Positions 7,614 to 19,281 of a stretch of DNA of 64,000 nt are shown piece by piece (position 1 is the first letter of the stretch; each line of letters opens with the position of its first letter). Source of the stretch: Aliiglaciecola lipolytica (GTDB lineage: Bacteria; Pseudomonadota; Gammaproteobacteria; Enterobacterales; Alteromonadaceae); assembly GCF_018860635.1 (NCBI RefSeq), contig NZ_JAHKPT010000022.1, forward strand, positions 62,001 to 126,000, in the 5' to 3' direction. Position numbers and translations under genes: made by a program. The notes beneath the pieces were generated by a model. The model saw only the letters and a program-made list of their open reading frames with translations, ran no database searches and had not been told where the DNA came from.

Positions 7614-8075
7614 CTATGTAGACGAAAGATTGAGTCGTTTTTCAACTATGATGGGCATATCTTTGCGCACAGCAGAAATACGAACTCGGACCTTTTGAGT
7701 ATCATCAGATAGAGCTTGATATTTAAACGATTGATTCCCTTTAATACGAGTCAAATACATCGTTGAGTTATCTAATAATTTAACGCCTTTACTGCTTACC
7801 ACTTCTGCTTTCACATTGTGGTAATCAGGATGGATATCATAACTAATAGTGAATACTCCGCCTTTAGCTGAGGCTTGGCTATCAGTTGAAAGGGTTACGT
7901 TCAGCGGCGCGTTTTGTGGCGGCCTAAAATGCTGCAACATCACAGGGTGCAATTCTGGTGACAAAGGCGGAAATTGGGGGATCTTACTTGTTCCATAATC
8001 GTGGTACTGACAGCTAAAGCTATATGCTGAGAATAGTACGCAACAGTACCCAAGAAAAAGCGATAATTTTTTCAT
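7614..8075 (-). CDS. Secreted hypothetical protein
   Basis: A 153-residue protein with a signal peptide (MKKLSLFLGYCCVLFSAYS), probably periplasmic or lipid-linked. The mature part has a Pro-rich stretch (PQFPPLSPELHP) and a C-terminal region with alternating beta-strand character that could be an Ig-like or fibronectin-like sandwich. An AGGCAT-type site precedes the ATG. No family is recognised. It sits just outside the zinc island, facing away from the DUF3299 genes; membership in that regulon cannot be shown, since I see no Zur-box-like sequence upstream. Confidence 0.65.
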   Translation of the reverse strand: MKKLSLFLGYCCVLFSAYSFSCQYHDYGTSKIPQFPPLSPELHPVMLQHFRPPQNAPLNVTLSTDSQASAKGGVFTISYDIHPDYHNVKAEVVSSKGVKLLDNSTMYLTRIKGNQSFKYQALSDDTQKVRVRISAVRKDMPIIVEKRLNLSST

Positions 8076-8536: not shown

Positions 8537-9118
8537 TTGAACAGAAAAATTGCTTTGGGTCGTTGCTACAGTATTGGATTCCTTTCATTAATATTACTCT
8601 TATGCACTTCTGCACAGGCGGAAAGTAATCCGATTTATGATGAAATTGAATGGATAGAGTTAATGCCACAGAGCGATCTCGACGCATTACTTGATCCACC
8701 TGACTTTCTGAACGAAATAAAAGACGGTAGTGAGCTAGACTCTGTTCAAGCTCTATCTGGTATGAGCGAAAAGAGTGAAAATGTAGAACGCTTTCAACAA
8801 GCGTTAACGTCAACTCGTATTATTCAGAGTTTCGACAAAAAATCGATAAGAATTCCTGGGTTTATTGTTCCTCTGAGCTCTGATGATCAGAAACGTGTAG
8901 TGGAGTTTTTCATCGTTCCGTATTTTGGTGCATGTTTGCATATGCCGCCACCGCCACCAAATCAAATCATTTACGGTAAATTTAGTAAGGGAATTAAGCT
9001 TACTCAGTTAGATGTGGCGTTTTGGTTTGAAGGTGTCATTAATATTGAAACCAATAGCAACGAAACAGGGACATCTGCTTATGCAATGACCTTGGATAAT
9101 ATTGAAATATATGACTGA
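8537..9118 (+). CDS. DUF3299 family exported protein, first copy
   Basis: A 193-residue protein with a signal peptide (cleavage near TSAQA) and a C-terminal DUF3299 domain. The family signature is clear: an IRIPGFIVPLS strand, then VPYFGACLHMPPPPPNQII, with a conserved Cys and His that could bind metal, then a closing GTSAYAMTLDNIEIY strand. The biochemical function is unknown; such proteins recur in gammaproteobacterial zinc-uptake loci. The start is a TTG preceded by a weak GAGTG. A second paralogue follows 78 bp later. Placement beside ZrgA, Zur and ZnuD genes points to a role in periplasmic zinc handling, by inference. Confidence 0.82.
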   Translation: MNRKIALGRCYSIGFLSLILLLCTSAQAESNPIYDEIEWIELMPQSDLDALLDPPDFLNEIKDGSELDSVQALSGMSEKSENVERFQQALTSTRIIQSFDKKSIRIPGFIVPLSSDDQKRVVEFFIVPYFGACLHMPPPPPNQIIYGKFSKGIKLTQLDVAFWFEGVINIETNSNETGTSAYAMTLDNIEIYD

Positions 9119-9196
9119 TAATTCAATCGCCAAAATAACTCTGGTTGAAAACTAAAGTATCTTGTATGTGATATCGCAGTTAAAACAGTCTTGAAA

Positions 9197-9871
9197 ATGT
9201 CAGTATTTGCACATCGTAAATTTGCAATTAGCATATTGTTTTGTGCCGGTTTGGGACTATTGGTTGGGCGTTTGGGTGCTGATTCTTGGCCATCCGTGAA
9301 GAATGTATTTTTTACAACGCCCCAACTGTATTTCACATCTAATAAACTGCTTCAAGAACATTACCAAAAAGCTAAGGTGATGCCCTTAGATTGGGTATCA
9401 CTTTTGCCTGAAAATGAACTGGATGTGATTGCCCGGTATCAGGCAAATAAACTAGATAAAAATATTGATATGAAGTCGCAAATATTACTTTCAATCGAAG
9501 CTGCGACGGATCCTGAATACAAAGCAGCTCTGCAATCGATTAACACGGTAAATACTTTCGAAAATCACATGGTCGCTATATCGGGTTTCATCGTTCCGAT
9601 CGATTTTCATCCTGACAAAACGGTGAAGAACATGTTTCTAGTTCCATACTTTGGGGCTTGTTTGCATTACCCCGCACCACCACCAAACCAGATTATTTTT
9701 GCCCGATTAGATGCAGGCTTTGCGCACTTAGAACTGAATCGAGCTTATACCTTGACGGGGCAAATTAAAATTGGATTATTTGAGGATCCTATGGGAACTT
9801 CAGCATACACACTAAATGTCATTTCTATTGTCGCTTTTAACGGTCAACCTGATGATTTTCGTAATCACTAA
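9197..9871 (+). CDS. DUF3299 family membrane-anchored protein, second copy
   Basis: A 224-residue paralogue of the preceding gene with an N-terminal hydrophobic anchor (about residues 9-25) and a longer linker. The DUF3299 core is repeated: AISGFIVPID, then VPYFGACLHYPAPPPNQII with the same Cys and His, then GTSAYTLNVISIV. The frame opens at a TTG at 9191, but the ATG two codons later is the likely start. Its closeness to the first copy suggests tandem duplication within one transcript, one form soluble or cleaved and the other membrane-bound. It converges with the DUF1826 gene. Exact function unknown. Confidence 0.82.
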   Translation: MSVFAHRKFAISILFCAGLGLLVGRLGADSWPSVKNVFFTTPQLYFTSNKLLQEHYQKAKVMPLDWVSLLPENELDVIARYQANKLDKNIDMKSQILLSIEAATDPEYKAALQSINTVNTFENHMVAISGFIVPIDFHPDKTVKNMFLVPYFGACLHYPAPPPNQIIFARLDAGFAHLELNRAYTLTGQIKIGLFEDPMGTSAYTLNVISIVAFNGQPDDFRNH

Positions 9872-9885
9872 TTTGCTAAGTTGAG

Positions 9886-10560
9886 TCAAGGTAAAAAATC
9901 TAAAGTCATAAGTAAACGTTTTTGGCCTCCGTTATACGGCGGGGAGCGATGGACTATTCCCGCTGACTGATTGCCAATCCATGCTTCACCTTTGAGAAGG
10001 GCAACATCACCAGTTTCGATGGTTTGTATATCTGCTTGATGACGGAAAAGACCTGAAACTTCATCCTCTAAGCCTTTACTACCATGGCCTAATTTATCCC
10101 TTTCTACCTTGTTATGCTCTAACCATTGAGTGCCAGGCCCTGCAAAGGTGGTTACTAATCTGCAAGGAACGCGATCAACGTGAAAGCGAGGGCACATAGG
10201 CGAATCAATTAAACGTAAACGCAAACCTACTTCATCAAGTTCAAATAATGTGCAGAATATATCTACTAATTCAGTTGTACAGTCTAAAAATGCATTGCCA
10301 ATTTCTGTAGATTTTAATCCGTCACAAATATCGCCTTTAATATCTTTAGCTCGGATGAATGCAGATGTATTTAAGGATGTCGCTGTATCTAATAGATTTT
10401 CCACATCTGTGATTACCGCCTCGGATAAACACCGTTTCCAGATTGCAATGTTGACATCTTGAGCATAAATGTCGGTCAAAGTGTTGATGTCTTGTGAGGA
10501 CACTGAACGCCGAATTAAGGGATTTATTAGTTCTGGTTCTAAGGCTCTCGCTGTTGACAT
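9886..10560 (-). CDS. DUF1826 domain protein
   Basis: A 224-residue cytoplasmic protein matching the DUF1826 family as I recall it. The C-terminal half has CPRFHVDRVPCRLVTTFAGPGTQWLEH and later AWIGNQSAGIVHRSPP, with conserved His, Asp and Cys residues in a pattern reminiscent of metal-dependent jelly-roll (2-oxoglutarate oxygenase-like) enzymes. Activity is not established. Genes of this family are often found in Zur-controlled clusters. Here it is the last gene of the zrgA-merC-DUF1826 set, 53 bp after the MerC gene, so it is probably induced by zinc limitation. No signal peptide. Confidence 0.78.
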   Translation of the reverse strand: MSTARALEPELINPLIRRSVSSQDINTLTDIYAQDVNIAIWKRCLSEAVITDVENLLDTATSLNTSAFIRAKDIKGDICDGLKSTEIGNAFLDCTTELVDIFCTLFELDEVGLRLRLIDSPMCPRFHVDRVPCRLVTTFAGPGTQWLEHNKVERDKLGHGSKGLEDEVSGLFRHQADIQTIETGDVALLKGEAWIGNQSAGIVHRSPPYNGGQKRLLMTLDFLP

Positions 10561-10613
10561 AGAAAGTTCTACCTTTACTTATTTTAGGATAATCAATCGA
10601 GTTGATAATTCAT

Positions 10614-11027
10614 TTAAGAGGTTGCGTGGTAAGGTTGATAATTCGACCTCCTAAGGCGTAAATTCTTAATGTGACCAAAACCGATTAACGCTGCGCCAGT
10701 AACAGAAGCAATCACTTCGCCGGTTTCACCGAAAACATCGTGTCCAAACACAGCTGCAAGGACTAATATGATTATTCCTATTAATGCTGTGACTAGAACA
10801 GACAAACTACGTTGGTGCACATAACCAAATGCAATGGCAAATACACTGATGGGAACCACTGCATAAAGTAGCCAAATGTGAAAGTGTTCATCATCAACAA
10901 TCGCGAAACTCGTCAAAGTCGGTAGCGCAATTAAAATTATCGGTGACAGTAGGCAATGAACAACACATAAAGTCGATATTGTAATTGCAGAGCGGTCAGC
11001 AAAAGTTAACAGTTTTTTTAACATCAT
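10614..11027 (-). CDS. MerC-family inner membrane protein, first copy
   Basis: A 137-residue protein with four hydrophobic segments (about 15-37, 46-66, 72-92 and 96-115), the MerC domain layout. The first helix carries LCVVHCLLSP, a C-x-x-H-C arrangement able to bind soft or transition metals, and the loops hold HFH and GHD. MerC proteins carry Hg(II) in mercury operons, but no mer genes are present and its neighbours are ZrgA and DUF1826, so zinc is the more likely substrate (inference). It is 105 bp downstream of zrgA. A paralogue sits beside zur at 14350-14772. Confidence 0.85.
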   Translation of the reverse strand: MMLKKLLTFADRSAITISTLCVVHCLLSPIILIALPTLTSFAIVDDEHFHIWLLYAVVPISVFAIAFGYVHQRSLSVLVTALIGIIILVLAAVFGHDVFGETGEVIASVTGAALIGFGHIKNLRLRRSNYQPYHATS

Positions 11028-11132
11028 ATTAGTACCTGATTTTATTTTTAAAGGTGTTTGTTATCGAACTCTAATACTAAGTAAAAATAGATGTATTCGA
11101 GTTTAAGCTGGATGGCTTTAAAAGGTTCATGT

Positions 11133-11633
11133 TTAACGCCATTGCAATTGAGGTGCACTTGCAGTTATCAGCTTCGAACCCTGACCCAATTGCGTGCTCC
11201 ATTGAACGTGTAAACTTTTTAGATTGTGGTATTGCTGTAGAATCGGAAAAGTCATTTCTGATATGGCTTGCTCGCATTCGAGTAAGTAAATAAATTCTAG
11301 ATCGTGATGTTGCTTAGTTGGACTCTCATCCTGTCCAGTGGATGCCAAAGCGCTTTGTGAATCGTTACGCTGAACACACGTTGAATCAAACTGAACAAGA
11401 TTGTTAAAGTCTGTTCGTTTTTTCTCAAACTGGTCAACTAAATACTGCTGATGTTTATTTTCAGGGCTATGTTCAAAACCCAATATGTCTGAGGCGGGTA
11501 GTAAAAACTGTACTTGCCAGAGCTCATTTTCCTGAACAATAAAAACGCTGCCTTGTCCATGGACATGGTGTTGAGATTGCACATTACAAGCCCAGCTAGC
11601 TAGTATAAGGACTCCTAAAATGGATAATTTCAT
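11133..11633 (-). CDS. zrgA: ZrgA-family (DUF2796) periplasmic zinc-uptake protein
   Basis: A 166-residue exported protein of the DUF2796/ZrgA family. The signal peptide is followed at once by HHVHGQGSV, a His cluster at the mature N terminus, then the family motif LPASDILGFEHSPEN and more His/Asp/Glu residues. In Vibrio, ZrgA belongs to a Zur-regulated zinc-uptake system. The frame opens four codons earlier, but the intervening GGGGGAGAG is an ideal ribosome-binding site for the ATG at 11633. It heads the minus-strand set zrgA-merC-DUF1826, divergent from the PhoX-like gene, with two Zur-box-like palindromes upstream. Confidence 0.85.
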   Translation of the reverse strand: MKLSILGVLILASWACNVQSQHHVHGQGSVFIVQENELWQVQFLLPASDILGFEHSPENKHQQYLVDQFEKKRTDFNNLVQFDSTCVQRNDSQSALASTGQDESPTKQHHDLEFIYLLECEQAISEMTFPILQQYHNLKSLHVQWSTQLGQGSKLITASAPQLQWR

Positions 11634-11672
11634 CTCTCCCCCCATCTCGATTAAAGGTTGTTAGTTTGGTTA

Positions 11673-11695
11673 TTGTTGAGATAATATAACATCAC
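11673..11695. promoter_or_regulatory. Zur-box-like operator, zrgA-proximal
   Basis: On the minus strand this reads with the core ATGTTATATTAT, close to the gammaproteobacterial Zur consensus core ATGTTATANTATAACAT. It lies about 40 bp upstream of the zrgA start in the divergent zrgA/phoX-like region, where a repressor could cover the promoter. A second similar box is centred about 31 bp away. Confidence 0.65.
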
Positions 11696-11703
11696 TTTAT
11701 TAA

Positions 11704-11725
11704 TTGATATAGTATAACGTATCAA
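11704..11725. promoter_or_regulatory. Zur-box-like operator, second of the pair
   Basis: A palindrome beginning TTGATA and ending TATCAA around GTATAAC. It matches the Zur consensus core on the reverse strand (ACGTTATACTATAT). With its neighbour it forms a tandem pair between the divergent zrgA and PhoX-like genes. The PhoX-like start is over 200 bp away, so it may have its own promoter further down. Confidence 0.65.
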
Positions 11726-11940
11726 CATTTTGCTTTGTTGTTTAGTGCTCTTCGGGGCTTTTTGTCAATAAATATTATGACTGATGCTGAGATAACAATC
11801 TGTCAGCAAAGTGAAACACACTTTATGCTGCACAATAGCTAGACTTAGCACAATTAAGGTTGTGTACATGTTTATGCAATATTTTGGTGTTTGAATAAAC
11901 CCAATACAGAATAATACTCACCAATATAATAGGAATTTTT

Positions 11941-13299
11941 ATGCTTACCCGAAGACAGTTTAATCAAGGTTTTGTAGCCATGGCATTTGGTGGTCTTGCT
12001 ACTCATTTACACGGTGGTGAGTTAACTCGTTATTTAACTGATGTGGCTAGCTGTAGCAATTCTCTAGGCGGTTTGGTTCCAGATCCTAAAGGCATAATTG
12101 ATTTGCCGCCGGGATTTAGTTATCGAGCGATTTCACAATTGGGCGAGGTTATGAATGACGGCTTAACTGTGCCTGATCGTGCCGATGGCATGGGGTGTTT
12201 TATGGTGGATGAGGAACGTGTAGTGTTAGTTCGCAATCATGAACTCTCTCCTTCTAACGGCACAACCGGGCAGGCTCGTACAAGCGTAGATTCGGCAGCC
12301 GTTTATGATACCGATTCATCGGGCAATCCGTTGCCAGGTGGCACCAGTAATATTGTATACAACCTTAAAACACACCAAGTTGAATACCAGTGTATGTCGT
12401 TGCTTGGAACTATCCGAAATTGTTCTGGTGGTATTACTCCTTGGGGAAGCTGGTTAACCTGTGAAGAATCCGTTGCCACTGCATCTGCTAAAATTAACAA
12501 AAATCATGGTTACGTGTTTGAAGTGCCGTCTCAAGCAAGACAATTGGTTAAACCAGATCCGATAAAAGCCATGGGGAGGTTTAATCATGAAGCAGCATGT
12601 GTGGATCCTATAAGTGGAATTGTTTATTTAACAGAAGACCGCCCAGATAGTCTTTTCTATCGATATATACCAAATCAAAAAGGAGATTTAAAAGCGGGAG
12701 GTCAATTACAAGCTTTGGTAGTTCGAGGAGAGTCTAAATTTGATACCCGTAACTGGCAAGAATCGCGCATGCAGGTTAATCAACCTTATGCTTGTGAATG
12801 GATAGATCTGGATAATGTGGATAGCCCAGATGATGATTTACGGATACGCGGGTTTGCAAAAGGCGCTGCTCTATTTGCTCGCGGTGAAGGTATTCATTTT
12901 GGAACAGATGAAATGTACTTTTGTTGCACCAGTGGCGGCAAGGCAAAGCTTGGACAAATTATGCGTTATAAACCTTCACCTAAACAAGACCAGCAAACAG
13001 GCACTTTGACATTGTTTGTGGAAAGTTTAGACAAAGTCACTTTTAATTTTGGAGACAATATAACAGTCGCACCTAGCGGCCATTTAATTGTGTGTGAAGA
13101 TCAATACTCAGACACGGTTAATAATCATCTAAAAGGGGTTACTCCCTCAGGTAAAGTCTACGACGTTGCTAAGGTGCGTTGGCAGACCGAGCCCGCTGGA
13201 GCTTGTTTTTCAGATGATGGTTCAGTGTTATTTGTAAATTTATATTCTCCTACTACCACGTTGGCTATAAGTGGTCCTTGGGCGTCACTTAATGCATAA
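11941..13299 (+). CDS. PhoX-like (DUF839) phosphatase
   Basis: A 452-residue protein of the PhoX/DUF839 family, six-bladed propeller enzymes that in studied cases use calcium and iron to release phosphate from esters. A twin-arginine-like leader (TRRQFNQGF then a hydrophobic run) indicates folded export to the periplasm. Family features include RNHE near residue 101, WGSWLTCEES, GRFNHEAACVDP, YLTEDR and a C-terminal CEDQYSD. It is shorter than classical PhoX, so it is a compact relative. A GGA-type site precedes the ATG. It overlaps the CobW-type GTPase gene by 8 bp, so translation is probably coupled. In a Zur-linked cluster it would be a zinc-independent substitute for PhoA (inference). Confidence 0.82.
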   Translation: MLTRRQFNQGFVAMAFGGLATHLHGGELTRYLTDVASCSNSLGGLVPDPKGIIDLPPGFSYRAISQLGEVMNDGLTVPDRADGMGCFMVDEERVVLVRNHELSPSNGTTGQARTSVDSAAVYDTDSSGNPLPGGTSNIVYNLKTHQVEYQCMSLLGTIRNCSGGITPWGSWLTCEESVATASAKINKNHGYVFEVPSQARQLVKPDPIKAMGRFNHEAACVDPISGIVYLTEDRPDSLFYRYIPNQKGDLKAGGQLQALVVRGESKFDTRNWQESRMQVNQPYACEWIDLDNVDSPDDDLRIRGFAKGAALFARGEGIHFGTDEMYFCCTSGGKAKLGQIMRYKPSPKQDQQTGTLTLFVESLDKVTFNFGDNITVAPSGHLIVCEDQYSDTVNNHLKGVTPSGKVYDVAKVRWQTEPAGACFSDDGSVLFVNLYSPTTTLAISGPWASLNA

Positions 13300-14311
13300 A
13301 ATCGAATACCTACCCACTAACATAATAACAGGCGCTTTAGGTGTTGGAAAAACCACACTTATTCAGTCTTTACTAAAACAAAAACCTAAAGAGCAACGAT
13401 GGGCGGTGTTAGTTAATGAATTTGGTGAAGTGGGTGTCGACGGGGCACTTTTAACCAGTCCTGAAAAAAATGGTGTATTTATCAAAGAAGTACCTGGTGG
13501 CTGCATGTGTTGCACGTCAGGAGTGCCGATGAAAATAGCGTTGAATGTATTGCTGGCCAAAGCCAAACCACATCGTTTACTGATTGAGCCTACGGGCCTC
13601 GGTCATCCAAAAGAAGTGTTAGCCACGCTTACTTGTGCAGATTATCGAGACGTGCTGGACGTACATGCAACTCTAGGTTTAATCGATGCGCGCCGAATTC
13701 TGGATCAGCGTTGGCGTGCACACAAGACGTTCCAAGAGCAACTACAGACTGCTGATTATATAGTGGCAACCAAGTCGGATCTTTATGATCACGAATCTCA
13801 ATCTTTATTGGCTAGTTATTTATCAGAAATTGGTGTTTCCACCACTCCAATTGTATATTCTGACAATGGCATTATTGACCCTATACTACTGCACAATAGG
13901 TCTCGAAATGTAGAGAACATCTACGTTCATCAGCATAATCATCCTGCACATTCTATTTTGACTCCCTCGTTTGACACACCTAAAGTAGGCTCAATTAAAG
14001 TTGAAAATAGTGGTGAAGGATATTTTTCGTGTGGTTGGATTTGTGCCCATTCAGTCGTCTTCGATTATCAACAAATTATGGATACGTTAAGCGGCTTAGA
14101 CGTGGAACGTTTAAAAGCCGTTTTTATTACCCAACAAGGTGCTTTGGGGTGTAACTATAGTGACGGTGTTTTACGGATCACCGAAATCGACAGTGCCAAA
14201 GATTCGCGCATTGAATTTTTAACCCAAGATAAGCAACTCGCCGAGCAAACTAGCAAAATATTAGAAACCTCGTTAGGTTTAAATTCGGTTTGTTCTAACA
14301 CTTTTAGTTAA
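13292..14311 (+). CDS. CobW/ZNG-type GTPase (COG0523), putative zinc metallochaperone
   Basis: A 339-residue G3E GTPase of the COG0523 family. N-terminal motifs: Walker A GALGVGKTT, NEFGEVGVDG, the metal-binding GGCMCC (CxCC), then EPTGLGHP (Walker B region) and TKSDLYD as the guanine-recognition loop. A His-containing linker (HQHNHPAH) leads to a CobW_C-like C-terminal domain. Members under Zur control deliver zinc to client enzymes when zinc is scarce. The open frame extends upstream, but the ATG at 13292, overlapping the PhoX-like stop, is preferred. The gene shares a transcript with the PhoX-like phosphatase and converges with merC copy 2. Confidence 0.88.
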   Translation: MHKIEYLPTNIITGALGVGKTTLIQSLLKQKPKEQRWAVLVNEFGEVGVDGALLTSPEKNGVFIKEVPGGCMCCTSGVPMKIALNVLLAKAKPHRLLIEPTGLGHPKEVLATLTCADYRDVLDVHATLGLIDARRILDQRWRAHKTFQEQLQTADYIVATKSDLYDHESQSLLASYLSEIGVSTTPIVYSDNGIIDPILLHNRSRNVENIYVHQHNHPAHSILTPSFDTPKVGSIKVENSGEGYFSCGWICAHSVVFDYQQIMDTLSGLDVERLKAVFITQQGALGCNYSDGVLRITEIDSAKDSRIEFLTQDKQLAEQTSKILETSLGLNSVCSNTFS

Positions 14312-14349
14312 TGCTGTATCTTAAGTTTCACTGTTTGATTGCTTTTTAA

Positions 14350-14772
14350 TTAATTCGCCTTGTCTTCCGATGTATGAGGTTCTGGTTGTTTATTCATTCT
14401 CTGCAACTGATAGTTTCTTATATGGGCAAAGGCGATAATGCTCGAACCCAATACGGTTAAAGCAACTTCAGCATAGTTACCGAGTAAGTCATGGCCCAGC
14501 AGTGCTGTCACAATTAATAGTGTTAGCCCTAATGAAGCGAGCAAAAAGACTCTTCCGCTGCGATGATGGAAATAACCCATAATCAAAGCGATGACACTAA
14601 TTGGCACTACCGCAAAGAGCAACCAACGGTGGAATAGCGCGTCATTGATGGCAAATAAGCCAGAAAGCGGAGGCATGATAATGAGTAAAATAGGGAAAAA
14701 AAGACAGTGAACTACACATAGGAGAGATAACCCCACCGCTACTTTATCGCTTATTTGTTGAATCTTAGTCAT
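14350..14772 (-). CDS. MerC-family inner membrane protein, second copy
   Basis: A 140-residue, four-helix MerC protein clearly paralogous to the one at 10614-11027: both have SxLCVVHCL in helix 1, FHxWLLxAVVPISV, a GHD motif and an Arg-rich C-terminal tail after HIxN. The open frame is 19 residues longer, but the ATG at 14772 overlaps the zur stop (ATGA), which marks translational coupling. The transcript zur-merC places metal movement directly under its sensor. The substrate is inferred to be zinc; mercury resistance is unlikely, because no MerR, MerA or MerT genes occur nearby. Confidence 0.85.
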   Translation of the reverse strand: MTKIQQISDKVAVGLSLLCVVHCLFFPILLIIMPPLSGLFAINDALFHRWLLFAVVPISVIALIMGYFHHRSGRVFLLASLGLTLLIVTALLGHDLLGNYAEVALTVLGSSIIAFAHIRNYQLQRMNKQPEPHTSEDKAN

Positions 14773-15266
14773 ATAGATAGACCCCCAGATGAATTCTTTT
14801 TGTGCTTCTGTGAAGAGCAATCGTTGCAAATGCTATTTAGTTCAATTTGTGAACCTAAAATCGGAAAGCCAGCACTTTTCGCTTGTTCAGACAATGTTTT
14901 AATCAGGTCATTCGCCAATTCGATTTTTTTTATGCTCTGACAAGATTTACAAATCAAAAAAAGTGGAGGTTGGTGCTTCCACGGACCAAAAGTAGGGGCA
15001 CAAATGATGTATTTGTTAATCGAATTAAGGCGATGAACTAGCTTCGCAGCTTCTAAAAATTCCAATATACGATAAACCGACATTGCGGTAATCGGTGCGC
15101 CGATTATAGAGTTATAGTGATCTGTTAATTCGTAAGCTGATACCGGCGTGTTTAGTTGGAATAACACTTCTAATACATGCTGGCGTTTTTCCGTTAGCTT
15201 ACTACCAGATTCTTCACAAATTAACCTAGCTATTGAAATCAAATTTTTTGTTTCACTAGACTTCAT
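14769..15266 (-). CDS. zur: Zur, zinc-responsive Fur-family repressor
   Basis: A 165-residue Fur-family regulator. The N-terminal winged helix (about residues 15-85: LTEKRQHVLEVLF, then AYELTDHYN and TAMSVYRILEFL) binds DNA. The C-terminal part has two Cys pairs (CKSCQ and CNDC) for the structural zinc and a His-containing stretch before them. Length, Cys pairs and gene context fit Zur rather than Fur. The frame extends 19 codons upstream to a GTG, but the ATG at 15266 follows a TAGGGA site about 9 bases away. It is divergent from the ZnuD-like receptor with two Zur-box-like sites between, so autoregulation is likely. Confidence 0.9.
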   Translation of the reverse strand: MKSSETKNLISIARLICEESGSKLTEKRQHVLEVLFQLNTPVSAYELTDHYNSIIGAPITAMSVYRILEFLEAAKLVHRLNSINKYIICAPTFGPWKHQPPLFLICKSCQSIKKIELANDLIKTLSEQAKSAGFPILGSQIELNSICNDCSSQKHKKNSSGGLSI

Positions 15267-15418
15267 AGTCTTTTTCCCTACCGACTTTTCGCAGTTTGAG
15301 ACAGTTATTTCTAAATTAGCCACAAGGGCAGGTTTAGTTGAAATACGCTCGTTTGCGTCTGTCTATGCAAATTTCCGCACTAATATTTTTTCCAATTTAT
15401 AGGATTGCCTTTGCTTTT

Positions 15419-15441
15419 GATACATTATAACATAACCGAAT
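15419..15441. promoter_or_regulatory. Zur-box-like operator between zur and znuD-like genes
   Basis: Core ATTATAACATAAC matches the Zur consensus core with few changes. It is the first of two boxes in the divergent region, about 28 bp centre to centre from the second, as in the zrgA region. Confidence 0.65.
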
Positions 15442-15446
15442 TGATT

Positions 15447-15469
15447 GAAACAGTATAACATAACATTGG
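15447..15469. promoter_or_regulatory. Zur-box-like operator at the znuD-like start
   Basis: Begins GAAAC and continues AGTATAACATAACATT, one of the best matches to the Zur consensus in this window. It lies directly upstream of the GGAGAGTGAG ribosome-binding region of the receptor, where binding would block transcription. Confidence 0.7.
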
Positions 15470-15477
15470 AGAGTGAG

Positions 15478-17865
15478 ATGTATAAAATATCGAGAATTGT
15501 GGCACTTGTTAGTGCGCTCATACCTGCGAGCGTCATGGCGCAATCTATCGAAGGGGTGGTTAAAAATAGTGATGGGAAGGCCGTTTCTGGTGCCCTTGTT
15601 AAGGTTGAAGGAACAAACGCCAAAACCCATACCGATAGCGACGGATATTTTGTAATTAACGATTTGAGAGCAGGAGTTAATGAATTTCATATCTCAGCTT
15701 CCGGTTTTGCTCACCTTCATCAAGACATCGTTTTGAATGCAGATGAAGTTACAGAATTGGCGTTAACTTTAATTCGTTCACCTATTGAGGTTATTGACGT
15801 AGTTGCGACTCCCATCCATATGTCGGTGATGGAATCAGCCTCTCCGATAAGCGTGCTTTCAGGTGAAACATTGCGTCGTCAACAAGCTTCCACCTTAGGT
15901 GATACCTTAGAGAAACTGCCAGGTGTTCAATCGAACTTTCACGGCAATGTTGCCAGTACCCCGATTATTCGAGGCTTGAGTGGGCCTCGGGTACTAATTG
16001 CACAAAATGGTTTAGACGTAAGTGATGTATCCAGAGTGGGTCCTGACCATTCAGTGGCCACTGAAGCTTCTACTTCGCAACAAATTGAAGTCCTGCGTGG
16101 ACCTGCCACCTTATTTTACGGTAGTGGTGCAATTGGAGGTGTCGTCAATGTGGTTGATGGACGTGTTCCCACTGACAATTCCACGCAGGGTGAATGGTTG
16201 CTTGAAAGCAATTCCGCTGATGATAAAAAGCTCGCGAGCTTTAATCTCACCACAGGGTATGAGTCGTTTGGTTTTTACGCCGATGGTTATTGGCATGAAT
16301 CTAATGATTACGAAGTGCCTGTAGAAGCTGAGATCGAAGAAGATGATCATGAAGAAGAAGAGGGTGGTGATTATGTTGTGGAAAACAGCGCTGAAAAATC
16401 AAATGGTTTCACTCTAGGCGCGAGTTATCTCTTAGATGATGGTTATGTAGGCGTTGCGGTTGAGCAATTTAACCGTGAATACGGTGTGCCCGGCCATTCA
16501 CATGATGGTGACGTCAGTGTGTTTGCCGATCTAGAACAAACACGGGTGCAATTGCTCGGCGAATTAAATGTGCAATCACAGTGGATCAATAAAGTTAACC
16601 TTAGAGGTGCATTTACTGACTACGAGCATGCCGAGATAGAAAATGGCGAGGTGGGTACCTTATTCGAAAATGATACACATGAGCTCAAAGTAGACGTGAT
16701 GCATAACCCATTCGTTGATTGGAATGGTGGTATCAGCTTTCATTATAAAAATAGCGAAGTTTCAGCTGTCGGTGAAGAGGCTTTCACTCCCCCTTCGAAG
16801 TCTGAGACCATTGCATTAGCTGTTATGGAAGAAAAACACTTCGCAGATGTGTTATTACAATTTGGTGCTCGAATAGAGCGTGTCACCATTGATGCCGATA
16901 ACGTTTTACTTCCTGTTCTTGAAGCTCACGGGCACGACGAAGAAGAAGATGAACATGATCACGATCATGGCGATGAAGAAACCGCCACACGGGTTTTCGA
17001 TGTTGCTCATAAGTTTACGCCAGTTAGTGTGTCTGCTGGTTTAGTTTGGGACTTCACCCCTGGTTATAATATTGGCCTTTCTGTTTCACGTTCAGAGCGT
17101 GCACCTTCAGCTGCAGAGCTGCTGTCTTTTGGCGCACATATAGGCACCAATAGCTATGAAGTGGGCGCTTTATTTGCGCTAGACGATGAAGAAATTGGGC
17201 TCTCTGGTGAAACCATTGACCTTGAAACTGCCAATAACATTGATTTGACACTGCGTAAGACTCAAGGTGATGTGGCATTCGTATTCAATGCTTTTTATAA
17301 CCAAGTAGACAATTACTATTATCAAACCAATACCGGTCTTTATGTTGAAAGTAGTCATGACCATGATGAAGAAGAACACGATCATGATGCGGAAGAAGAA
17401 GAGCATACTGACGAGTTACCAGTGTATATATTTGAAACCGATGACGTAGTCTTAAATGGTTTTGAAGTGCAAATAGCATGGCAGGCAACCGATACGTTTA
17501 AAGCCACTGTGTTCTCTGACTTTGTTCGCGCGCGATTAAAAGACGGTGGCAATTTACCCCGTACTTCCCCACTTCGTTACGGCACGCAATTCGCCTACGT
17601 CGATGACAGCCTAACTGCCCACTTAGATGTGACCCGCTATCAAAGCCAAAACCATGTTTCAACGGATGAAACCACTACCGATGGTTACACCATGGTTGAT
17701 GCAAGTGTTGCTTACGATATACCTGTGTCGAATCAAGACGTCACTGTGTATCTGAAAGGCACAAATTTGACCGATACCGAAGCGCGAGTACATACCTCAT
17801 TTATTAAAGATATCGCCCCTCGCCCAGGACGTAGTTTCGCCGTGGGCATAAAAGGCAATTTCTAA
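15478..17865 (+). CDS. znuD: ZnuD-like TonB-dependent outer membrane zinc receptor
   Basis: A 795-residue receptor. A signal peptide (ending ASVMAQ) is followed by a carboxypeptidase-regulatory-like beta-sandwich (about 20-95), a TonB box region (EVIDVVATP), the plug (GVQSNF, RGLSGPRVLI, RVGPDHS) and a 22-strand barrel ending in an aromatic residue. Three extracellular-loop-type stretches are rich in His, Asp and Glu (EEDDHEEEEGG, DEHDHDHGDEE, DHDEEEHDHDAEEEEH), typical of zinc-capturing ZnuD proteins. The ATG at 15478 follows GGAGAGTGAG and overlapping Zur boxes. The AztD-like gene follows after 36 bp. Confidence 0.9.
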   Translation: MYKISRIVALVSALIPASVMAQSIEGVVKNSDGKAVSGALVKVEGTNAKTHTDSDGYFVINDLRAGVNEFHISASGFAHLHQDIVLNADEVTELALTLIRSPIEVIDVVATPIHMSVMESASPISVLSGETLRRQQASTLGDTLEKLPGVQSNFHGNVASTPIIRGLSGPRVLIAQNGLDVSDVSRVGPDHSVATEASTSQQIEVLRGPATLFYGSGAIGGVVNVVDGRVPTDNSTQGEWLLESNSADDKKLASFNLTTGYESFGFYADGYWHESNDYEVPVEAEIEEDDHEEEEGGDYVVENSAEKSNGFTLGASYLLDDGYVGVAVEQFNREYGVPGHSHDGDVSVFADLEQTRVQLLGELNVQSQWINKVNLRGAFTDYEHAEIENGEVGTLFENDTHELKVDVMHNPFVDWNGGISFHYKNSEVSAVGEEAFTPPSKSETIALAVMEEKHFADVLLQFGARIERVTIDADNVLLPVLEAHGHDEEEDEHDHDHGDEETATRVFDVAHKFTPVSVSAGLVWDFTPGYNIGLSVSRSERAPSAAELLSFGAHIGTNSYEVGALFALDDEEIGLSGETIDLETANNIDLTLRKTQGDVAFVFNAFYNQVDNYYYQTNTGLYVESSHDHDEEEHDHDAEEEEHTDELPVYIFETDDVVLNGFEVQIAWQATDTFKATVFSDFVRARLKDGGNLPRTSPLRYGTQFAYVDDSLTAHLDVTRYQSQNHVSTDETTTDGYTMVDASVAYDIPVSNQDVTVYLKGTNLTDTEARVHTSFIKDIAPRPGRSFAVGIKGNF

Positions 17866-17901
17866 TTCGATAATCACTTTTCACACAATAAGGAATAAAC
17901 A

Positions 17902-19281
17902 ATGACAACCACACGCAAACTTTCTTTACTCGCTGCGACAATCAGCGCGCTACTGTTAACCGGCTGCGGTGATGCAGAAACGACCATTATTGAAAAAGAG
18001 TCGATTGAAGAAGTTGATGATTCAACGGAAGATGAGCATGATCACAGTGATGACGAATACCTAATTGAATCAATGGGCCGATTGGCAGTGTTATCTTCTG
18101 ATAGCAATGCTGCCATATACGATTTAGATGATGGGGATGAGTTAGATTCGTTTTCATTAACCTATTCGTCGAGCACTCTAACTTCCTCTGCTGACTATCG
18201 TTATGCCGTAATTGCTAGTCGTTCTGATGATTATGTCGGTTTTATCGATAGCGGTATGTGGCGTGAGGATCATGGCGAGCATTTACATGATTACCAACAA
18301 GGTCCGGCGATGAGTGACTATCAAATCATTGGCAGTCGACCTACCCATATTATTAATCATGATGGCCAGATGGCAATTTTCTTTGATGGCGATGCAGACT
18401 CCAATACACCAGCTTCTATACAGGTTGCAACGGATACCGATATCAGTGGTGAGACAAGCCTACTGCCGACTCTGAGCTATGATATAAACATGCATGGTGC
18501 AGTTGAACCTAAAGGAGAGTATTTATTGGCAACTGTGCGTCGTGATGACGCAGAAAGTACCTCGGCGGCTAAAATATTACCTGACCAAGTTGCTTTGTAT
18601 CATTTGCATGATGATGAATATGAACAAGAGCAGGTGCTTGATGTACTTTGTCCAGATTTGCATGGCAGCGCTATAAATGAAAGCTACGCTGTGTTTGGAT
18701 GCAGTGACGGTATATTGGCCGCGCACGCACATGATGATGAATACGAAGCTGAAAAAATTGCCAATATTGATGTGTTGGACGGTTTGAGAATCGGCACTAT
18801 TTATGGTCATGAAGAGAATGATACTTTTATCGGTATCGCTTCAGGCCACGATGCTGGTGAGGCAATTTTAATTAAAATTGCCCCTGCAGACAGTGAAATG
18901 GAAGCCCTTGAATGGCAACCAGAAAGCGATGCCAGTCCGGTTGCTTACGGGTTTTCCTATGAAGGGGATATGTTTTTGGTGTTGGACAGCCAAGGTTATT
19001 TGAATATCCTTAGTGCTCACGACCATGATGGCGAAACCCATTGGGAGCTTGAGCAAAGCCTTGATATCTCGGATGAAGATATTGCCGATATGCCTGATGG
19101 CATCAATTTCAGTATGACAATGGCACAAAATGGAAACTATGTGTATGTATCTGACCCCATTGCTCAACACGTTTTGCAAATTGATTTGGAAACTATCGAA
19201 GTTGTGAGTGATATTGAACTAGGCTTTGCCGCTTCCAGTATTGAATGGTTGGGTATCGCCGAAGAAGCGCACGATCACTAG
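17902..19281 (+). CDS. AztD-like His-rich beta-propeller lipoprotein (putative zinc metallochaperone)
   Basis: A 459-residue lipoprotein with lipobox LTGC near residue 22, so anchored in the envelope. After an acidic His-containing tail (EDEHDHSDDEY) comes a repeat structure consistent with a propeller. His/Asp clusters recur blade by blade: EDHGEHLHDY, YHLHDDEYE, AHAHDDEYEAE, SAHDHDGETH and a terminal EAHDH. AztD proteins, periplasmic zinc chaperones in alphaproteobacteria, share this plan; the assignment is from general resemblance. It follows the ZnuD-like gene by 36 bp and precedes a strong terminator, so the two form an operon passing zinc from receptor to periplasm (inference). Confidence 0.78.
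   Translation: MTTTRKLSLLAATISALLLTGCGDAETTIIEKESIEEVDDSTEDEHDHSDDEYLIESMGRLAVLSSDSNAAIYDLDDGDELDSFSLTYSSSTLTSSADYRYAVIASRSDDYVGFIDSGMWREDHGEHLHDYQQGPAMSDYQIIGSRPTHIINHDGQMAIFFDGDADSNTPASIQVATDTDISGETSLLPTLSYDINMHGAVEPKGEYLLATVRRDDAESTSAAKILPDQVALYHLHDDEYEQEQVLDVLCPDLHGSAINESYAVFGCSDGILAAHAHDDEYEAEKIANIDVLDGLRIGTIYGHEENDTFIGIASGHDAGEAILIKIAPADSEMEALEWQPESDASPVAYGFSYEGDMFLVLDSQGYLNILSAHDHDGETHWELEQSLDISDEDIADMPDGINFSMTMAQNGNYVYVSDPIAQHVLQIDLETIEVVSDIELGFAASSIEWLGIAEEAHDH

Follow-up and report, generated by a model that had tools for sequence, protein, structure and literature searches.

The window analysed here, a stretch of 64,000 nucleotides forming part of contig C11 of the Aliiglaciecola lipolytica genome (36 contigs, 5.03 Mb, rated 100% complete), carries a gene island that encodes two MerC paralogues, MerC1 and MerC2, together with a FUR-family regulator Zur, a ZnuD-like receptor, a ZrgA-family protein, an AztD-like protein, a COG0523/CobW-type GTPase, a PhoX-like phosphatase, a DUF1826 protein and two DUF3299 proteins (Table 1). 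Judged from sequence analysis, it is moderately probable that the island serves zinc acquisition under the control of Zur and that MerC acts as inner-membrane zinc importer, standing in for ZnuABC in most Alteromonadaceae. The parts of the island are already known and the new claim is the MerC step. At sufficient zinc, Zur would repress the island promoters and it would release its boxes when zinc is scarce. Zinc would then cross the outer membrane through the ZnuD-like receptor and be held or handed on in the periplasm by the AztD-like protein and ZrgA; the MerC proteins, with a CxxHC motif in helix 1 and conserved Glu, His and Asn residues in helix 4, would carry it across the inner membrane, and the COG0523 GTPase would distribute it inside the cell. 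All transport steps, their direction and the metal are what we infer from the families, boxes, gene order and genome distributions computed here. Zinc, cadmium and mercury belong to one group, and the title of a study reports more cadmium in plants carrying MerC. MerC is read as a zinc importer because of this title, its Zur-type boxes, its linkage, the missing ZnuB and the Hg(II) transport ascribed to MerC of mer operons.

Three FUR-family genes were found in the genome, namely Fur, a core Zur (L268:4863-5294, contig C17) and the island Zur. The core Zur scores 146.9 bits to the NCBIfam model NF008646 and the island Zur, which is more diverged, 74.9 bits; Zur is the best NCBIfam name for the island protein, below the cut-off of 167 bits. 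As the genome already has a core Zur, the island brings a second one. Regulatory sites were searched with the pattern TGTTATANTATAACA, which we take to be the gammaproteobacterial Zur consensus, counting sites by mismatches and using the reversed pattern as control. The core of the pattern falls within a predicted Vibrio parahaemolyticus Zur site quoted in PMC9817125. Both divergent promoter regions of the island carry Zur-box-like palindromes, and in a locus from the same genus (L064) the zrgA/phoX gap holds a site with one mismatch; no box with up to three mismatches was found in front of the DUF3299 pair. The comparison was extended to 61 loci (1,199,465 bases), comprising the window and 60 stretches, none longer than 20 kb, fetched from genomes of the family and the order, 39 of them around best Zur matches (L064-L102) and 21 around MerC/DUF1826 (L103-L123). 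With overlapping palindromes counted separately, 46 sites in these loci have no more than one mismatch and 102 no more than two, vs 1 and 15 for the reversed pattern, which puts the box far above the chance level. Those with up to two mismatches face genes for ZnuD, a ZrgC-like ATPase with DUF3299, DUF1826, ZrgA, zur, MerC, PhoX and CobW, and 27 of them face some other gene. In the whole genome, a single place has at most one mismatch and 20 more have two, five of the latter being at zinc loci (three in the window, two before a second ZnuD gene). No site with at most two mismatches was found in three stretches around core zur genes (L268-L270), nor in 4 kb of the ZnuB stretch of genome G222, which was tried as positive control for the box. 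By these boxes the two divergent promoter regions of the island are predicted members of the Zur regulon. The view of the first-pass annotation, which was made from the sequence alone and proposed a Zur-linked island for zinc limitation, is supported.

The single genomic site with no more than one mismatch is found directly upstream of a third merC gene, which is located on contig C4 outside the island and has GDPD-like, DMT-transporter-like and polysaccharide-deacetylase-like neighbours that recur in the relatives read (these names, as well as BtuD/BtuF-like, PyrC2-like, gamma-CA-like and ThiF-like below, are labels assigned by eye or derived from general Pfam domains). A genome scan yielded 72 loci with counterparts of this third merC, mostly from Alteromonadaceae (Aliiglaciecola, Paraglaciecola, Alteromonas, Glaciecola, Bowmanella and others, some uncultured), one of which was too short upstream. 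A box with at most one mismatch is present within 220 bp upstream in 68 of the 71 testable loci, and both controls, the reversed pattern and a downstream stretch, gave 0/71. A second count, which took start codons according to a rule and missed at least the boxed gene of L051 that other scans had shown, covered 116 distinct MerC open reading frames (ORFs) from fetched loci that were partly selected as best-scoring matches: a box lies in the 300 bp upstream of 49 of them if up to one mismatch is allowed and of 57 if up to two are, with 0 and 2, respectively, for the reversed pattern. All 49 belong to the 85 MerC ORFs for which no codirectional ORF ends in the preceding 60 bp. In the MerC tree, built on few columns and with many unresolved forks, the boxed label needs approximately 16 changes, 6 of these forced by starred branches, so that boxed MerC proteins are not one clade. 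Membership of MerC genes in the Zur regulon is thereby a well supported prediction.

Both island paralogues score over the cut-off of the MerC family PF03203 (86.6 and 100.5 bits, cut-off 27.6). The residues D9, C19, H22, C23, E102, H117 and N120 are invariant in an alignment of 47 MerC rows, and a more diverse alignment of 33 rows keeps four of them invariant, namely the Asp, both Cys and the last His, and the motif His nearly so. A model built on the 47-row alignment (predicted local distance difference test, pLDDT, 78.5) consists of four helices, the first containing the CxxHC motif and the last E102, H117 and N120. No paper ascribing a zinc role to MerC turned up within the coverage of the literature search, which had subscription papers, preprints and RegPrecise outside it and was in one case blurred by words such as Merck. 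The one paper listed for MerC domain-containing proteins is a study of a response regulator in Xanthomonas, and the whole word MerC does not occur in the text of two Zur reviews. ZepA (PMC10957091) was considered as possible precedent and set aside, as neither "merc" nor "phox" occurs in its text.

The own genome was searched with profiles for other zinc permeases. The first-pass annotation had found no ZnuABC genes at the island; this holds genome-wide, where no ZnuB-type (ABC-3, PF00950) permease was found, the sole ABC-3 match being BtuC/FecCD-like and located between BtuD-like and BtuF-like genes. Among 147 genomes of the family, MerC is present in 140, ZIP in 54 (42 over the cut-off), NRAMP in 106 (96 over the cut-off) and any ABC-3 match in 71, of which 16 were assigned to the ZnuB type by our own sorting according to frame length and profile coverage. 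The weak ABC-3 matches in most family genomes were sorted as FecCD/BtuC-like, only that of the own genome having been read, and were not used as evidence. According to genome overlaps compiled by hand from the profile-search tables, 80 of the 147 genomes have neither a ZnuB-type nor a ZIP match and 75 of these have MerC, and 27 have no ZnuB-type, ZIP or NRAMP match, with MerC in 25. At the level of the order, where the counts were likewise drawn up by hand from the tables, MerC was found in 50 of 197 genomes. An ABC-3 match with E <1e-30 is present in 15/50 genomes with MerC vs 106/147 without (Fisher 2e-7), and leaving out the own family in 15/36 vs 106/147 (8e-4).

Several observations weigh against MerC as the stand-in for ZnuABC. 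Five (G199, G211, G215, G250 and G290) of the 80 genomes that have neither a ZnuB-type nor a ZIP match lack MerC as well, and it is present in 14 of the 16 ZnuB-type genomes, thus there is no mutual exclusion within the family. If weak split ABC-3 matches (E 1e-6 to 1e-30) are counted as well, the comparison without the own family shrinks to 24/36 vs 123/147 (p 0.03); the cut at 1e-30 was set for the order after the table had been seen, and the family-level count took weak split matches as ZnuB-type. As the genomes counted are related, the distribution is indicative only. The window's own boxes have two mismatches, and at three mismatches the pattern matches the own genome 230 times and the control 512 times, so that weight is put only on the best sites. 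No solved relative of MerC was retrieved by sequence search of the PDB or by Foldseek (E <=0.001). Furthermore, the genome encodes a ZIP protein, for which NCBIfam gave a single match, to ZupT and below the cut-off. It also has an NRAMP gene, which follows downstream of the second, double-boxed ZnuD-like receptor gene at a distance of 270 bp. MerC therefore need not be the sole route.

These permeases would fit an alternative that we hold to be unlikely, although with an appreciable chance, in which MerC is Zur-regulated but accessory, with a role as metal relay, sensor or insertase, such as the delivery of zinc to the COG0523 GTPase, while zinc enters through ZIP, NRAMP or an unrecognised permease. 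A ZnuD-NRAMP pair with at least one box (up to two mismatches) occurs in 7 of 20 fetched NRAMP loci, and COG0523 adjoins MerC on the same strand in 11 of 40 Zur-centred loci (the 39 fetched ones and the window). However, the other 13 NRAMP loci have neither ZnuD nor box, MerC is present in the 25 of 27 genomes in which none of the three permease types was matched, and in PMC12193353 the MerC of mer operons is described as metal importer.

The eleven genes as a fixed conserved unit are rejected. The first-pass annotation had described their joint layout as one system; labelling the ORFs with iterated profiles of the window proteins revealed all nine families together in only 2/40 Zur-centred loci, the window and L064 of the same genus, the rest being a mosaic in which parts recur. 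MerC is present in 27 of these loci, DUF1826 in 20, CobW in 19, ZnuD in 17, DUF3299 in 16, ZrgA in 15, the AztD-like protein in 14 and PhoX in 6, and in 5/40 loci zur stands without any of the other eight families. It appears improbable, but would be in line with this variation, that the island consists of independently useful Zur targets travelling together without a joint route, and that ZrgA and DUF3299 belong to MacB-type export as proposed in Pseudomonas, where PMC11481552 argues that one component of PA4063-PA4066 is an exporter of the MacB type with a link to pyochelin-cobalt. Among relatives, 11/40 loci have DUF3299 in divergent orientation to the ATPase of a MacB-type pair, and this pair (ZrgB/ZrgC) is absent from the window's island. 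Against this stand the recurrent pairs, i.e., zur-merC adjacent and codirectional in 25/40, zrgA-zur in 13/40 and znuD-AztD-like in 12/40 loci, and the shared boxes, which suggest more than a random association but do not point to a single machine. The full route across both membranes that the first-pass annotation saw in the island lacks the ZrgB/ZrgC pair, which was located on contig C34 of the genome; the 19 kb fetched there contain no box of at most two mismatches.

MerC was also followed onto plasmids by a tblastn search of MerC2 against 72,556 plasmid records, which found eight, of which six were opened. Two Sphingomonadales loci have the order TonB receptor-MerC-repressor, in which the only NCBIfam match of the repressor at the limit applied is Zur, below the cut-off, and one of the two receptors matches ZnuD, also below the cut-off. 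A third Sphingomonadales locus contains DUF1826-COG0523 beside MerC-COG0523-repressor, this repressor being without NCBIfam match at the same limit. On a plasmid of Catenovulum, which belongs to the same family as the window, MerC lies near DUF3299 and an ABC ATPase-permease pair, and one Sphingomonas locus is without a zinc gene. The Tolypothrix plasmid locus (L293:3216-6387) speaks against the reading as zinc importer, as MerC is found there beside a ZntA-like P-type ATPase and an ArsR-type repressor, closest to CmtR among the named models, by its predicted genes a detoxification setting. That MerC is a mercury or cadmium defence protein in the window too, with another regulator reading the palindrome, is suggested by this locus and by the family name and is nevertheless very improbable, as no mer gene was found among the window proteins scanned with Pfam, the pattern equals the core of the predicted Zur site quoted in PMC9817125 and it faces ZnuD, ZrgA, zur and DUF1826 genes.

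The features of the island are compiled in Table 1. Families were called on the window proteins by the curated cut-offs of Pfam, by NCBIfam models and by sequence matches to the PDB; all eleven ORFs listed by the first-pass annotation are present, and each of the family names is backed by a Pfam or PDB sequence match.

Table 1. Features of the island and related loci elsewhere in the genome (window positions, unless a locus and contig are given)
Feature	Position	Strand	Evidence
Small protein, unknown family	7614..8075	-	Cluster c2 in 8/61 loci including the window; weak TonB_C match (E 0.0044) only
DUF3299 protein a, ZrgE-like	8537..9118	+	PF11736 E 1.2e-41; PDB 4hsp E 4.8e-25
DUF3299 protein b	9191..9871	+	PF11736 E 1e-31
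DUF1826 protein	9886..10560	-	PF08856 E 3.9e-59
MerC1, predicted membrane protein with CxxHC motif	10614..11027	-	PF03203 E 2.1e-24; alignment
ZrgA-family zinc-binding protein	11133..11645	-	PF10986 E 8.6e-27; PDB 8ezw E 2.2e-4
Two Zur-box-like sites, zrgA/phoX gap	11677-11691, 11705-11719	.	2 mismatches each
PhoX-like phosphatase	11941..13299	+	PF05787 E 1.8e-75; two stretches align to 3zwu/4amf
COG0523/CobW-type GTPase	13292..14311 (ORF 13271-14311, ATG ~13292)	+	PF02492 E 8.5e-43
MerC2	14350..14772 (ORF 14350-14829)	-	PF03203; directly downstream of zur
Island Zur, FUR family	14769..15323	-	PF01475 E 4.4e-10; NF008646 74.9 bits, cut-off 167
Two Zur-box-like sites, zur/ZnuD gap	15418-15432, 15446-15460	.	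2 and 3 mismatches, respectively
ZnuD-like TonB-dependent receptor	15445..17865 (ATG ~15478)	+	PF00593, PF07715; NF038289 351 bits, cut-off 950
AztD-like protein, putative periplasmic zinc chaperone	17902..19281	+	PDB 6ck1 E 5.7e-14, 6cmk E 3.3e-11
Second ZnuD-like receptor with two tandem box-like sites, then NRAMP	L126:3283-7014, contig C22		
ZrgC-ZrgB-like pair, then ThiF/MoeB-looking gene	L127:7832-9789, contig C34		

The small gene at the left border recurs beside or between DUF3299 genes in the eight loci and is by this recurrence a twelfth member of the island. From strand and spacing, zrgA-merC1-DUF1826 probably form a leftward transcript, and zur-merC2, with overlapping ORFs, is likely another one; rightward transcripts are likely for phoX-cobW, znuD with the AztD-like gene and the two DUF3299 genes. 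ZnuD is the best NCBIfam name for the receptor, yet below the cut-off, and the receptor contains His/acidic-rich stretches. The island ZrgA is likewise under the cut-off of the NCBIfam ZrgA equivalog (56.3 of 185 bits), and for the AztD-like protein, which has no Pfam family above cut-off, the relation rests on the solved AztD chains.

Of the zinc-sparing response that the first-pass annotation had assumed, little is left in the island. FolE2, PyrC2-like and gamma-CA-like genes occur in the loci of relatives (6, 5 and 2, respectively) and none was found in the window, and PhoX is therefore the only candidate for sparing. In its two conserved stretches Cys179 and Glu273 of 3zwu, presumably metal ligands, are aligned. 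The phosphatase would be zinc-independent. The DUF1826 protein has the pattern F-H-x-D ... H-R-S-P ... R-L, unchanged in 16/16 aligned sequences, and an HxD...H...R pattern is typical of Fe(II)/2-oxoglutarate oxygenases, making such an activity possible; profile searches gave no match backing this assignment and the single-sequence fold model (pLDDT 31.6) was too poor to use. As a separate observation, a protein that joins an endonuclease/exonuclease/phosphatase domain to a HAD acid phosphatase recurs in zinc islands of relatives, at L068:15437-17062 and in seven other loci (domains read in L068).

Should MerC transport zinc, it would represent a new class of zinc importer, and a family assumed to serve metal detoxification would become one of nutrient uptake; numerous genes whose present annotation refers to mercury resistance would gain a function. 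Seawater is poor in zinc, and import by MerC would explain how zinc is taken up in a common marine group in which 80/147 genomes lack a found ZnuB-type or ZIP permease. Somewhat short of an even chance, and put forward tentatively from sequence comparisons, is the wider proposal that MerC constitutes a further class of bacterial zinc importers of the inner membrane beside ABC-3, ZIP and NRAMP, under Zur control and serving as main high-affinity route in most Alteromonadaceae and some Sphingomonadales, and that the MerC of mercury resistance would be a specialised offshoot of this zinc-nutrition family.

Among known systems, the island resembles ZrgABCDE of Vibrio in having ZrgA (DUF2796) and DUF3299, which is ZrgE in Vibrio. 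It differs from it as the ZrgB/ZrgC-like pair lies on another contig, no DUF2607 protein (ZrgD) was found among the window proteins scanned, and MerC, ZnuD-like and AztD-like genes are added. PA4066 of Pseudomonas aeruginosa is a DUF3299 protein as well. Zur control was described for ZrgABCDE (PMC9817125) and for PA4063-PA4066 (PMC11481552). With AztABCD of Paracoccus the island shares the AztD-like protein, which is paired here with a ZnuD-like receptor, while no AztB-type ABC-3 permease was found in the genome.

In MerC of Tn21 the Cys motif is located in helix 1. The island proteins belong to the same family as this mercury importer (PF03203) and share with it four helices in the model and the Cys motif in helix 1. 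They differ by the CxxHC form of the motif, by a Zur box or a place in a zur operon and by the lack of mer genes nearby; MerC of the window is not part of a mer operon and its neighbours are genes of the zinc type. In PMC12193353 the mer-operon protein is described as moving Hg(II) inward, and the MerC passages seen of this article concern mercury. COG0523, DUF1826 and an outer-membrane receptor are named together in a figure legend of Haas et al., 2009 (PMC2770081); MerC was not found in the accessible text of that study, where matches to "merc" are author names. Also comparable is zrpW-zrpX of Caulobacter, described in PMC4176598 as a Zur-repressed putative non-ABC transporter beside COG0523, with the difference that six transmembrane domains are given there for ZrpW, whereas MerC has four helices in the model.

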